Positions 5,657-58,284 of a stretch of DNA of 64,000 nucleotides are shown here, in pieces. Position 1 is the first letter of the stretch. Each line of letters begins with the position of its first letter. Origin of the DNA: Cellulomonas sp. GTDB lineage: Bacteria; Actinomycetota; Actinomycetes; Actinomycetales; Cellulomonadaceae. The position numbers and the translations under genes were made by a program. A model generated the notes under the pieces. That model had not been told where the DNA came from and searched no databases. It worked only from the letters and a program-made list of their open reading frames with translations. Where the stretch lies: NCBI RefSeq assembly GCF_015234515.1, contig NZ_JADGMY010000023.1, positions 494,366 through 558,365 of the forward strand. Direction: 5' to 3'.

Positions 5657-6648
5657 CACTGCTCCTCCGCGAGCCAACCGGCCAGCTCCGTCGCCCAGTA
5701 CGTCAGGATGGCATCGGCACCGGCGCGACGGATGCTGAGCACCGACTCGGTGACTGCACTCCGACGGCCGATCCACCCCCGCGCGGACGCCGCCTCGATC
5801 ATGGCGTACTCGCCGGACACCTGGTACGCCCAGACGGGCACGGTTGAGGACGCGGCCACGTCGGCGAGCACGTCGAGGTACGACATCGCGGGCTTCACCA
5901 TGACGACGTCGGCGCCCTCGGCCACGTCGATCGCGACCTCGCGTGCGGCCTCGCGGCGGTTGGCCGGGTCCATCTGGTAGGTGCGGCGGTCGCCGTCGAG
6001 CTGCGACTCCACGGCCTCACGGAACGGGCCGTAGAACGCCGACGCGTACTTGGCGGCGTACGCCAGGACGGCGACCTCGTGGTGGCCGGCGGCGTCGAGC
6101 GCATCCCGCACGACCCCCGTCTGGCCGTCCATCATGCCGCTGAGCCCCACGAGGTGCGCCCCGGCCTCGGCCTGGGCGACGGCCATCGCCGCGTACCGCT
6201 CGAGGGTCGCGTCGTTGTCGACCACGCCGTCGGCGGTGAGCACGCCGCAGTGCCCGTGGTCGGTGAACTCGTCGAGGCACAGGTCGGCCTGCACGACGAG
6301 TGCGTCGCCGACCTCCGCGACGACGTCCGCGAGCGCGACGTTGAGGATGCCGTCCGGGTCCGTGGCGCCGGACCCGACCGCGTCGCGGTGCACCGGAACG
6401 CCGAACAGCATGATGCCGCCGATGCCGGCCGCGGCCGCGCGCGCGGCCTCCTGGCGCAGCGAGTCGCGGGTGTGCTGCACGACGCCCGGCATCGACGTCA
6501 GCGGGCGCGGTGCGTCGAGCCCCTCACGCACGAAGACCGGCAGCACGAGGTCCGCGGGGTGCAGGCGGGTCTGGGCGGCCAGGCGGCGCATCGCGGGGGT
6601 GCGGCGCAGACGCCGGGGGCGGATGCGGCCGGGCGTGGGGACGGTCAC
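5656..6648 (-). CDS. hemB: Porphobilinogen synthase (delta-aminolevulinic acid dehydratase)
   Basis: 330 residues; condenses two 5-aminolevulinate molecules to porphobilinogen. The metal region reads [14 protein letters not shown], in which one of the three zinc cysteines of the classical site is Asp. The two catalytic lysines sit in [15 protein letters not shown] and [11 protein letters not shown]. The GTG start overlaps the hemD stop (GTGA), and the stop overlaps hemL. The position between hemD and hemL confirms the role in heme synthesis. Confidence 0.96.
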
Positions 6649-7715
6649 GGGGAGTCCTCCGTGGTGGTGGGGGGCGTGCCGGGGGTGGCGCCCGTGCGGG
6701 CGACGTGGATCGCCAGTGCGTCGACGAGCCCGGCGAGGGTCTGGCGGTCGGCGACCGCGTCGACCCGCAGGCCCAGGCGGTCGGCCTCGGCCTGCGTGCT
6801 GGGTCCGATGACGACGACGCGCGTCGCCGGGGGCGGAGGGCCCAGGTGGTCGAGCAGCGCGCGCACGGTGCTCGCGGACGTGAGCAGGGCCGCGTGGACG
6901 TCGCCGCCGGCCCAGGCGTGGGCGACCTGCGGGTCGGGGGGCCCGGCGGGGACCGTGCGGTAGACGACCAGGTCGTCTACGGCCCAGCCCGCGGCCGTGA
7001 GCCCGTCGGCGAGCGTGGTGGCGGCGAGGTCGCCGCGGGGGAACAGCGTGCGCGGGCCGGCCGCGCCCGTCGCGACGAGGGCGGCGACGAGGTCCACGGC
7101 CGTCGAGCGCACGGGTGGCACGACGTCCACGCGGACGCCGAGCGCCTCGAGTGCGCGCGCCGTGCCCGGACCGACGGCCGCGACCCGCACGTCCGCGCGG
7201 CCCAGGAGGGCGGCGAGCCCGTCGTCGTGCGTCGCGGCGCGCTCGGCCAGGACGGCCACGGCCGCCTGGCTGGTCACCGTGAGCCACTCGTACCAGCCGG
7301 ACCCCAGGGCGAGCAGGGCGTCGTCGAGCGGCGTGAGGTCGTCGAGCGGGACGGTCCGGACCAGCGGCACGACGACCGGCTCGGCACCCGCGGCGACCAG
7401 CGCCATCGCGGCGGGGCTCACCGCGCCCCCGCCACCCCCCCAGCCGCGAGAGTGCGATCCAGCCACCCCCTCCTGCGCGTGAGAGTGCGATCCAGCCACC
7501 CCCTCCTGCGCGTGAGAGTGCGATCCAGCCACCCCCTCCTGCGCGTGAGAGTGCGATCCAGCCACCGCCGGGGCGCCGTCGGGGTGACTGGATTGCACTC
7601 TCACGGCCAGGTTTGTGGGTGGGGGGGTGGGTGGAGCGGGGTCGAGGGGAGGGCGGGGGACCAGGACGCGCCACCCCGTCAGCGGGCCCGTGGGTACGGG
7701 GGCGTCACCGGTCAC
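6645..7715 (-). CDS. hemD: Uroporphyrinogen-III synthase with an in-frame repeat insertion
   Basis: Cyclises hydroxymethylbilane to uroporphyrinogen III. The 356-residue product is about 100 residues longer than usual. The N-terminal strand GWRVLVPR (residues 14-21) normally leads within some 15-20 residues to the GAE-VVVPL segment. Here about 85 residues intervene, including a VRVQSSH copy and four copies of an 11-residue unit, [11 protein letters not shown] and close variants, followed by a glycine run. After the insertion the protein is normal: [49 protein letters not shown] and [14 protein letters not shown]. Both ends overlap neighbours (GTGA with hemC and with hemB). The frame is intact throughout, so the insertion is tolerated or selected. 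Confidence 0.92.
7448..7604. repeat. 33-bp tandem repeats plus one inverted copy inside hemD
   Basis: The core GAGAGTGCGATCCAGCCAC begins at 7448, 7481, 7514 and 7547, an exact 33-bp period (11 codons). A copy in the opposite orientation, GTGACTGGATTGCACTCTCA, begins at 7584. Spacers are C-rich. It belongs to the same family as the arrays at 1, 13391 and 49864. Confidence 0.95.
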
Positions 7716-12912: not shown

Positions 12913-13380
12913 ATGGCCACGATCGACGAGACCATCGACGTCGACGTCCCGGTCCGCACCGCGTACGACCAGTGGACGCAGTTCGCCGAGTTCCCGCACT
13001 TCATGAGCGGGGTCGACGAGGTCAAGCAGATCAGCGACACGCTGACGCGCTGGACGACCAGCATCGCAGGCGTCGACCGCGAGTTCGACGCCGCGATCCT
13101 CGAGCAGCAGCCGGACGTCGTGGTCGCGTGGGCGAGCGTCGACGGCACCACGCACGCCGGACGCGTCACCTTCGAGCCGCTCGGCCCCGGGTCGACGCGG
13201 GTCACCACACACATCGAGTGGGAGCCCGAGGGCTTCCGCGAGAAGGTCGGCGCCGCGATCGGCGCCGACGACCGGCAGGTCAAGAAGGACCTGCACCGCT
13301 TCAAGGAGTTCATCGAGGGCCGCCGCACCGAGACGGGCGCGTGGCGCGGTGAGGTCCACGGCGGCCACCCCACGACCTGA
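12913..13380 (+). CDS. SRPBCC (START-like) family protein
   Basis: A 155-residue single-domain protein of the polyketide cyclase/dehydrase type. It has the typical opening (IDETIDVDVPVRTAYDQWTQ), the FPHFMSGVDEV segment and alternating strands such as RVTFEPLGPGSTRVTTHIEW, forming a helix-grip cavity for a hydrophobic ligand. The start is supported by GGAGG 7 bases upstream. The ligand and role are unknown. It follows hemA by about 100 bases and is followed by a 550-bp repeat array. Confidence 0.85.
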   Translation: MATIDETIDVDVPVRTAYDQWTQFAEFPHFMSGVDEVKQISDTLTRWTTSIAGVDREFDAAILEQQPDVVVAWASVDGTTHAGRVTFEPLGPGSTRVTTHIEWEPEGFREKVGAAIGADDRQVKKDLHRFKEFIEGRRTETGAWRGEVHGGHPTT

Positions 13381-13390
13381 CGCGCATGCG

Positions 13391-13924
13391 CTGGATCGAC
13401 CTCTCACCCCACGGGGGTGAGAGGTCGATCCAGGCCTGCCCCTCCCCTCCTCCGGGCGTGAGATGTCAATCCAGTCCGCCCGGTCCACCTCCCGTCTGGG
13501 GCGTGAGATGTCAATCCAGTCCGCCCGGTCCACCTCCCGTTGGGCGTGAGACGTCGATCCAGTCCGCCCGTGCCCGCCCCGTGGGGCGTGAGATGTCAAT
13601 CCAGTCCTGCCCGTGCCCCCCCGTGGGCGCGAGGTGTCAATCGAGTCCGCCGGCGCTCGCCCCGTGGGGGCGTGACATGTCGATCCAGTGCGCTGGTGCC
13701 CGCCCCGTCGGGCGTGAGGTGTCAATCCAGTCCGGCCCGTGCCCGCCCCGTGGGGCGCGAGGTGTCAATCCAGTCACCCCCGGCTGTCGGTCGCGGCCGT
13801 CGCCGAGGGGAGGCGCCGGTGACTGGATTGACGTCTCACGGCCTGGGTGGGGGGTGGGGCGCACTGGATTGACGTCTCGCGGCCTGAGTGAGGGGAGGTG
13901 CCAGTGACTGGATTGACGTCTCGC
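13391..13924. repeat. Intergenic array of 13 short repeats in both orientations
   Basis: Fills the 560-base gap between two convergent genes. The core GTGAGATGTCAATCCAGT (or close variants with GTCGATCC) starts at 13417, 13458, 13503, 13546, 13588, 13628, 13672, 13714 and 13757. Copies in the opposite orientation lie at 13391, 13819, 13862 and 13904. Period is 40-45 bases with C-rich (or G-rich when inverted) spacers. The first two copies form a near-perfect 17-bp hairpin. Spacers are variants of one another, not unique sequences, so this is not a CRISPR. Confidence 0.95.
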
Positions 13925-13940
13925 GGCCGGGGGGTGGGGG

Positions 13941-15992
<2,052 letters not shown>

Positions 15993-49837: not shown

Positions 49838-49863
49838 CCGGGCGTCGCGGGGGCGGAGGAGGA

Positions 49864-50007
49864 ACTGGATTGACATCTCAGGGCCTGGTTCGGGGGGCTG
49901 GTGGAACTGGATCGACTTCTCACGGCCTGGTTTGGGGGGCTGGTGGAACTGGATTGACATCTCACGGCCTGGGGTGGGGGGCTGGTGGGACTGGATTGAC
50001 GTCTCAC
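49864..50007. repeat. Four 42-bp tandem repeats, intergenic
   Basis: Core ACTGGATTGACATCTCAC or variant begins at 49864, 49906, 49948 and 49990, exactly 42 bases apart, with spacers of the type GGCCTGGGGTGGGGGGCTGG. All copies have the same orientation. Located between marR and hisC. Same family as the arrays at 1, 7448 and 13391. Confidence 0.95.
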
Positions 50008-50063
50008 GGCCTGGGTTGGGGGGGTGGGGTGGACGGTGAGCGCGTCGGGGGTGGGGCGGTGGC

Positions 50064-56989: not shown

Positions 56990-57121
56990 AGGGCCGGATC
57001 CCACGGATCGGACGGCCCACCGTCGGCAGCCTGCGACGACGACGGTGATCGGCCGGGGTAGCGGCCGGGGCCGGGTCGCAGCCGGGGCCGGTCAGGGGCG
57101 GGGTCGGGGGCATGCCGCGCG

Positions 57122-57211
57122 GATGAGGTGCGGGGCCCGCCGCGGGGATGAGGTGCGGGGCCTGCCGCGGGGTTGAGGTGCGGGGCCCGCCGCGGGCGTG
57201 AGGTAGGGGCC
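57122..57211. repeat. 25-bp tandem repeat
   Basis: About three and a half copies of a 25-base unit beginning GATGAGGTGCGGGGCCCGCC. The gap 56895-57294 holds the hairpin, this repeat and a small palindrome, but no gene that I can support. Confidence 0.85.
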
Positions 57212-57294: not shown

Positions 57295-58284
57295 ATGCCG
57301 GCCGACGGGAGGACCCGCGCGGGCCGGACCCCGGCGGTGCTCGCGCGCGGGGCCGGTCTGAGCGCAGCCGTGCTCACGGGTGCCGTCGTCGGCCACTGCC
57401 TGGCGGGCGGTCACGTGCCCGGACCCGCCGTGCTCGGCGCGATCGGCGCACTCGTGCTCGTCGCGGGGGTGCTCGGCGCCCGCACCGCCGACGGGACCAG
57501 CACCCGCGCCGTCGCCGTCCTGGCTGCCGCGGTCCTGGCCGTGGCCCTCCACCCCGTGCTGGCGATGCTCGCGGTCCCGCCGGGTGCCGTGCCCGTCGAC
57601 CCCCACGCCGGTCACGGTGCCGCACCGGCGCAGGAGGCTGGGGGGACGGGCGCAGGCACGGGTGCGAGTGCGGGCACGAGCGCGACGCAGGACGGAGCCG
57701 GTGACGGCGCGTTCGCCGTCGACCTCGCGTCGCTCCGGGCGGCGGGGGTCGACCTCGACGCCGTGCGCGCGGCGGGCTGGGACCTCGACGCTCTCGTCGC
57801 GGCCGGACTCGACGCCGCGACGCTCGAGGCGGCAGGCCTCGACCCGGCCGACCCGCACGCCGCGCACACCGTCGCGTCCCTCGTCGCGGCGGCCGACCGC
57901 GCAGCCGCGGCCGCAGCGGACGCGCCGGCAACAGCCGATGGTGCCGGAGTCGATGGTGCCGGAGTCGATGGGTCCGGAGTCGATGGGTCCGGAGTCGATG
58001 GTGCTGGAGCCGACGGTGCTGGAGCCGACGGTGCTGGAGCCGATGGTGCTGGAGCCGACGGTGCTGGAGCCGATGGTGCCGGAGCCGACGGTGCCGCTGC
58101 GGACCCTGCTGGAGCCGACGGTGCCGGAGCCGACGGTGCCGGAGTCGACGATCCCGTCGCGCGCACGGATGGTCGGGTCGCCGTCGGGGTCACCCTGCTC
58201 CTCACCGCTGCGCTCGCCGCGACGACGCTCGCCCTGCCCGTGCACCGTCGTCGCGGTGGTCCGCGCGCGGTGGCCCTGGCGTGA
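57295..58284 (+). CDS. Membrane protein with GADGA pentapeptide repeats
   Basis: 329 residues. Three membrane helices in the first 95 residues, a His-containing PHAGHG, an external region with internal repeats of RAAGVDLDAVRAAGWDLDAL type, then about 14 tandem pentapeptides (GADGA, GVDGA, GVDGS), then a last membrane helix (TLLLTAALAATTLAL) and basic tail. No known family. First in a run with copC and copD; a GTG at 57238 is an alternative start. Copper-related function is inferred only from position. Confidence 0.72.
   Translation: MPADGRTRAGRTPAVLARGAGLSAAVLTGAVVGHCLAGGHVPGPAVLGAIGALVLVAGVLGARTADGTSTRAVAVLAAAVLAVALHPVLAMLAVPPGAVPVDPHAGHGAAPAQEAGGTGAGTGASAGTSATQDGAGDGAFAVDLASLRAAGVDLDAVRAAGWDLDALVAAGLDAATLEAAGLDPADPHAAHTVASLVAAADRAAAAAADAPATADGAGVDGAGVDGSGVDGSGVDGAGADGAGADGAGADGAGADGAGADGAGADGAAADPAGADGAGADGAGVDDPVARTDGRVAVGVTLLLTAALAATTLALPVHRRRGGPRAVALA
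57935..58145. repeat. 15-bp coding tandem repeat (GADGA units)
   Basis: About 14 copies of GGTGCYGGAGYCGAY, where Y is C or T, in frame within the membrane protein gene. Nearly identical third positions indicate recent expansion. Confidence 0.9.

Follow-up and report, generated by a model that had tools for sequence, protein, structure and literature searches.

The stretch of DNA analyzed here (64,000 nucleotides, hereafter the window) comes from a Cellulomonas genome designated G000 and contains a hemD gene, the single HemD match in that genome, whose product presents the HEM4 domain and fold and is predicted from its sequence to be a uroporphyrinogen-III synthase. The gene forms one open frame from GTG 7715, which overlaps the stop codon of hemC (7712-7714), down to position 6645, and cores of a short repeat were located in frame inside it, as the initial annotation had claimed (Table 1). 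The repeats occupy the strand 1-helix 1 loop. Measured between VLVP and SPA, this loop spans 79 residues in the G000 protein, against about 6 (RPxAGx type) in the remote Cellulomonas members looked at and 12-13 in five sister species (G060, G089, G090, G007 and G034), an excess of about 66-73 residues (first estimated at 65-70).

The loop DNA consists of four forward cores at 33-bp steps and one inverted core (CGTGAGAGTGCRATCCAG), and is described by TRF as a repeat of period 33 with 4.2 copies and 96% match. The layout of four 33-bp repeats plus an inverted copy therefore stands as annotated, but the repeats are not all exact, since core 1 reads CGCGAGA and the last unit is incomplete, stopping right after its core. 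Cores were scanned with a 21-bp weight matrix, using five mononucleotide shuffles of the window as control. The hemD copies score 25-40 and the shuffled window gives none at or above 6; the hemD cores are not due to chance. Because the inverted core comes first in the hemD sense strand, it is able to form one hairpin by pairing, as sense core, with the antisense copies. In an AlphaFold2 model of the protein (mean pLDDT 83; residues 11-20, mean 97), most of the insert falls below 50 and is flanked by a well-modelled strand 1 and helix 1. If low pLDDT is read as disorder, the insert apparently behaves as a disordered loop, in line with the surface loop first suggested. The nearest HemD structures are 3re1, 4es6 and 1wcw/1wcx; the strand 1-helix 1 insert of the G000 protein is absent from the known structure 4es6 in the alignment.

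Table 1. Coordinates of the genes, protein segments and repeat arrays discussed in the text (window positions).
Feature	Position	Strand	Remarks
hemD (predicted uroporphyrinogen-III synthase)	6645-7715	minus	356 aa including insert
Strand 1 codons (residues 16-20), 5' of insert	7656-7670	minus	V17 L18 V19 invariant in 33/33; mean pLDDT 97 for residues 11-20
Strand 1-helix 1 loop with repeat array	7419-7655	minus	79 residues; pLDDT <50 for 40-44 and 46-96
Core copy 1 (CGCGAGAGTGCGATCCAGCCA)	7445-7465	plus	matrix scan
Core copy 2	7478-7498	plus	matrix scan
Core copy 3	7511-7531	plus	matrix scan
Core copy 4	7544-7564	plus	matrix scan
Inverted core copy	7585-7605	minus	matrix scan; RNA fold z -7.1
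P-type ATPase, in-gene array	1-97 (cores 2-70)	minus	gene 1-1797, runs off window
Intergenic array, 11 cores, between convergent genes	13388-13925		matrix scan
Intergenic array, 4 cores, 42-bp spacing	49862-50008		TRF and matrix scan

Genomic context and species distribution of the core

The core (CGYGAGAGNGCRATCCAG) is often arranged as inverted pairs and tandem arrays, and its presence in intergenic arrays elsewhere, already annotated, was verified at two places in the window (Table 1). Its exact form GTGAGANNNNNATCCAG occurs 172 times in the 4.21-Mb G000 genome, while the reversed pattern, used as control, does not occur at all. The window and the fetched stretches of G000 cover at least 166 of these 172 exact cores (best 100 of 110 places listed) and, after removal of duplicates, contain 285 matrix-scored copies in 46 groups. 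Genes were called with a self-written, simple codon-usage finder trained on the window. According to these calls, 43 of the 46 groups are extragenic or at most overlap the end of a gene, and the remainder are the two in-gene arrays, in hemD and in the P-type ATPase gene, and one lone weak in-gene copy that is probably a chance match. The finder itself starts hemD at 7421, which places the array outside the gene, and was overruled here. A set of 402 copies treated as intergenic gives the consensus CGTGAGAGTGCAATCCAGTCC, the conserved part of the repeat being about 17-21 bp, and the direct spacing of cores centers on 30-33 bp (82 of 160).

In the G000 stretches, the 38 core-bearing intergenic gaps comprise 16 convergent, 20 tandem and 2 divergent ones, compared with 11, 61 and 28 among 100 core-free gaps in the same stretches, so that convergent gaps are enriched (Fisher test, p 1.6e-4) and divergent gaps depleted (p 0.0027). 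The median distance from the core to the nearest stop codon is 12.5 bp, with 27 of 36 gaps at 25 bp or less, and in 5 of the 36 the TGA of the core is itself the stop of the gene (genes at L060:2522, L064:2500, L072:2486, L082:2488 and L092:3012-3032). At 13388-13436, an inverted core pair forms a long, near-loopless hairpin immediately 3' of a stop codon; the same site in the relative G003 has another, G+C-rich hairpin, as if a native terminator had been replaced by the repeat. Within the array region scanned for intrinsic terminators (13300-14000), no hairpin followed by a T run was found, and an Rfam scan of the window at gathering thresholds returned no family. Several G000 contigs begin or end close to repeat arrays (e.g. 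the contig starts at L068, L095 and L096); given these contig ends and a 100-N gap within one array, array lengths at such places may be wrong.

More than one exact core was found, among the matches listed, in 5 of 36 Cellulomonas genomes including G000 itself (G000, G003, G007, G024 and G034), and none or one in each of 22 other genomes of the order. A looser pattern, searched in 28 chosen genomes, yielded, again among the matches listed, 292 copies in G000, 223 in G065, 211 in G066, 193 in G086, 145 in G074, 137 in G024, 68 in G094, 67 in G034, 65 in G003, 63 in G007, 33 in G101 and 15 in G068; the other 16 genomes gave 2-15, many of which resemble chance matches. In a 23-row tree of hemC-hemD-hemB, which includes the core-bearing species other than G007, the core-rich species and the core-poor G068 and G101 form one 11-row clade with support of 100/100. 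Branching within this clade is poorly settled, and the tree cannot separate one gain with losses from several gains. In G065, 36 of 37 core groups lie outside predicted genes (31 stretches, drawn from the first 100 matches out of 197). On contig C1 of G086, repeat sites are rare between 1.23 and 2.87 Mb, the middle 40% of a chromosome length taken as 4.1 Mb (5 of 35 sites among the matches listed, p 0.0015), and a similar mid-chromosome scarcity is seen among the matches listed for G065. A scan of a contig collection with HemD gave at least three loci among the matches listed, one of them Cellulomonas (C. avistercoris); this HemD matches the G000 protein at 89%, and the part shown is identical to that of G024.

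The hemD and ATPase insertions in related species

Comparison of HemD among relatives, which the initial annotation had proposed, revealed loops that are short and core-free, long and core-free, or different in copy number. The hemD loop holds six cores in G066, five in G000, four in G024 and in G074, two in G003, one in G086 and one weak core in G065; the layout is one inverted pair in G003 and two pairs in G024. Across the 12 long-loop species measured, the loop ranges from 0 to 6 cores and from 28 to 111 residues. This survey covered the loci whose HemD was recognized by the search motif; among those that the motif missed, tblastn recovers an unbroken HemD from L143, L144, L147 and L148 and a partial match from each of L149-L151. 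A separate alignment (A1) comprises 33 HemD rows; several fetched hemD loci, L008, L106, L142 and L017 among them, do not form part of it. Its row L139 begins at the closest start codon, which could make the row too short.

A single open frame contains the two loop flanks in each of the 12 long-loop species measured. It is this, and not the zero remainder of the loop length, which arises by construction, that constitutes evidence of a preserved frame. Stops occur in another frame in five of the seven core-bearing loops. In all seven, the first sense core is translated, in the same frame, into a VREQSSH-like peptide, which suggests that a single founding insertion may lie behind the hemD arrays of all these species.

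The open frame also bears on where translation begins. Were it to start behind the repeats, at GTG 7421 or ATG 7406, the array would be a leader and not part of the protein. The codon-usage finder prefers 7421, a G-rich, Shine-Dalgarno-like tract lies 5' of that GTG, and GTG 7715 has no clear ribosome site. Strand 1, which such a start would exclude, is nevertheless conserved as protein: V17, L18 and V19 are invariant in all 33 rows, and base changes in the strand 1 codons fall on third positions 508 times, against 132 on first and 186 on second positions (826 pairwise changes in 15 rows, not independent of one another). A check for start codons was confined to the two positions behind the loop that read ATG or GTG in G000; 8 of 15 rows have neither codon there, including the core-bearing G086. 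In addition, 11 of 12 rows have an A after the start codon, which allows an xTGA overlap with a stop, identified as that of hemC in the window only, and the loop flanks remain in one open frame throughout. Codon usage is poor in all seven loops with cores, at log-odds of -0.18 to -0.67, the remainder of the gene scoring 0.26 to 0.45; such poor usage is expected of repeat DNA, and also of untranslated DNA. A shorter start, a possibility raised in the initial annotation, is very unlikely, and hemD is read here from its full-length start.

The core also occurs in a second gene, encoding a P-type ATPase, where it falls between the catalytic stretches. The G000 array contains a 100-N assembly gap just beyond the window, and the frame is untraceable through it. 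ATPase cores occur in eight species; G000 has at least three. In-frame cores number two in G066, one each in G024, G003, G074 and G086, six at 54-bp steps in G065, two in G034 (scores 14.9 and 23.7) and a single, very weak one in G094; none was found in the ATPase of G060, G090, G101 or G068. G065 thus mirrors G000, with six cores in the ATPase gene and one weak core in hemD. ATPase arrays also lie at L083:9836-10036 and L201:1120-1379. All 18 same-strand spacings scored in hemD and the ATPase gene, from eight arrays (one spacing across the N gap left out), are divisible by three, the steps of a tandem array not being independent, and intergenic same-strand spacings leave remainders of 0, 1 and 2 in 64, 40 and 50 cases.

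The hemD loop might, on another account, be a length-variable, low-complexity linker shaped by ordinary slippage, in which the core is irrelevant. Four species do have loops without any core, of 54-57 residues in G006 and G011 and of 28-29 residues in G068 and G101. The long loop of G006 and G011 is built from unrelated DNA, a finding that goes partway towards the contrary case named in the initial annotation, namely the same insertion made of unrelated DNA in all relatives; seven species, however, share the core. G010, furthermore, grew a different repeat in another linker of the protein. Seven species nonetheless have, at precisely this site, the dispersed core of their own clade, and the loop of G094 contains four 42-bp tandem units that are probably a decayed core, since the score of their best stretch, though low (-4.9), exceeds the 95% level of its shuffles (-14.0). 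The ATPase bears the core as well, and chance does not yield it. That the core is irrelevant is therefore highly improbable, but the linker account remains right as to why the site tolerates insertion, since core-free long loops indicate that growth of any DNA is tolerated there.

The hemD of G010 (L015:1868-2620) is enlarged, in frame, by about 800 bp, within which an unrelated 39-bp hairpin repeat (GGGTGGACTTCC...TCCACCC) occurs seven times in the second, inter-lobe linker. This repeat is not a genome-wide family: five strict matches were obtained, in 1 of 12 genomes, and four of them are in hemD. The linkers of hemD seem to be a recurrent landing place for repeats.

Growth, spread and possible roles of the arrays

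Eight sites could be compared directly between G000 and G066. G066 has fewer copies at seven of them and one more at hemD, and G003 has 0, 0, 1, 1, 1 and 2 copies at the six sites covered. In the order G000/G066/G003, copy numbers are 4/1/1 at 49862, 11/4/0 at 13388, at least 3/2/1 in the ATPase gene, 4/3/0 at L083:7636, 8/2/1 at L083:2550 and 5/6/2 in hemD. A GTGACA variant is present in every ATPase copy of G000 and G066 alike, and a TGTCA variant at 49862 in two of the four G000 copies and in the single G066 copy. Such site-specific core variants, common to both genomes, indicate that arrays grow locally.

A Y1/RAYT transposase (PF01797) was found in none of 28 genomes, the control search being positive in 5 of 14. 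The marks of a MITE would be target-site duplications and a parent transposon whose ends match. The eight same-site comparisons, four of them read base by base, include no clean empty site with a target duplication, and no parent transposon was found among the ten neighboring genes scanned, which encode enzymes, two products without Pfam family, one weak HTH, one zinc ribbon and one Lsr2. Of the mobile or self-expanding repeat proposed in the initial annotation, expansion is borne out by copy numbers that vary among species; mobility would follow from the dispersal of the core, no mobility gene having been found. Three candidate routes were set aside: phage, with no exact match of one 20-base core form in viral contigs; plasmid, with no match for the one array queried; and general targeting of tRNA genes, only two of which occur in 38 array stretches (a tRNA-Leu, at L088, lies 27 bp from an array).

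Starting from what can be read directly in the genomes, namely the copies, their frame, their distribution among species and the change in copy number at the same sites, we consider it likely that a palindromic, REP/RPE-like repeat entered a tolerant HemD loop and expanded there by in-frame duplication. The repeat would be a dispersed family of one Cellulomonas clade, with its usual place directly 3' of stop codons. In the history of the clade, one copy would have entered the strand 1-helix 1 loop in a stop-free frame and then acquired inverted and tandem copies, presumably by slippage or unequal recombination. Duplications that left the frame open would have survived, the outcome being a HemD of full length whose disordered loop is tolerated. 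The predicted enzyme presumably works with the loop in place, and the loop probably has no function of its own.

The array could also be kept for a function, either as an mRNA hairpin tuning the hemC-hemD-hemB operon or through a role of the peptide loop. At the mRNA level, the entire insert forms a single hairpin (z -7.1 versus dinucleotide shuffles), the five multi-core inserts fold better than their mononucleotide shuffles (z -2.8 to -5.2), and a sense core precedes the antisense cores in all five species with at least two cores. This order, however, is explained by inheritance of one inverted pair. The single-core insert of G086 has a z of 0.1, while values of -3.4 and -2.8 are reached by G094, which has no scored core, and by G065, whose only core is weak; hence, folding does not track the cores. 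With sister species doing without cores altogether, we regard a retained function as quite improbable.

A further reading places selection on the DNA: the core would be the binding site of a putative chromosomal protein, and in-gene copies its by-products. The same columns vary in the 38 in-gene copies and the 402 copies taken as intergenic (ρ = 0.72, p 2e-4), a correlation biased upward because the scan threshold favors family-like copies. The direct spacing of the cores, centered on 30-33 bp, and the scarcity of listed sites in the middle of the G086 chromosome point the same way. The range of copy numbers within the clade, from 292 to 15, is a better fit to a neutral or selfish repeat, and we consider the binding-site reading unlikely. 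A broader form of this reading is likewise doubtful, in which the core serves as a recognition site at the DNA level, perhaps for a putative mobility or chromosome-binding protein, and is kept by the dozen or so species of one clade. In that case, the DNA requirement of the core would dictate the loop residues of two proteins, an essential enzyme and a metal pump, and the protein sequence would be set by DNA-level selection or copying, not by protein function. In-gene copies that vary like the DNA family do not vary like a selected peptide. The initial annotation had considered the loop domesticated; with 0-6 cores per loop, residues that follow the DNA family consensus (the same upward-biased ρ) and sisters that do without, a tolerated loop fits better.

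Comparison with known repeat families

Protein-coding palindromic repeats are best known in Rickettsia and its relatives. As described in the cited passages, Rickettsia palindromic elements (RPE), like other protein-coding MITEs, are palindromic and dispersed, both in intergenic regions and in frame within conserved enzyme genes, where they are tolerated (PMC2229807, PMC10969869), and their units measure 105-146 bp, with terminal inverted repeats and a reading frame of their own (PMC2229807). The Cellulomonas core resembles them, as those passages portray them, in being dispersed, palindromic and in frame in conserved genes (hemD and the P-type ATPase gene), but differs in a conserved unit of just 17-21 bp, in its variable spacers and in tandem arrays that change in number; in G000, moreover, only 2 of 46 groups are in-gene arrays. 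By analogy, RPE are the nearest known kind, with a different unit and array structure.

REP/BIME elements (GTAG- or CGTC-tagged), in the portion of the literature cited here, are short, extragenic repeats found behind genes and in arrays, some of them within genes (PMC3733652). The core is comparable to that description in its extragenic position behind genes and its arrays, and by this analogy may work in a REP-like manner. Membership among REP elements with RAYT is ruled out by the tag and transposase tests, as the consensus has neither GTAG nor CGTC tag and Y1_Tnp is absent from the 28 genomes. Mycobacterial interspersed repetitive units (MIRU) are actinobacterial tandem repeats that overlap stop codons, a likeness to the core where it contains the gene stop (the 5 of 36 gaps given above); their unit length and sequence apparently differ. 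The best matches listed from open-licence PMC papers include no description of this repeat and none of a repeat insert in hemD.

A free-living actinobacterial genus thus presents no core, one core, an inverted pair and a tandem array side by side at a single position in an essential gene, and these stages are repeated in the P-type ATPase gene. The route from a non-coding repeat to a protein segment becomes directly testable, including how such a repeat spreads without a recognized transposase. The window holds two other tandem repeats where the codon-usage finder calls no gene, a 25-bp repeat at 57107-57211 (4.2 copies) and a 15-bp repeat at 57933-58150 (14.5 copies).
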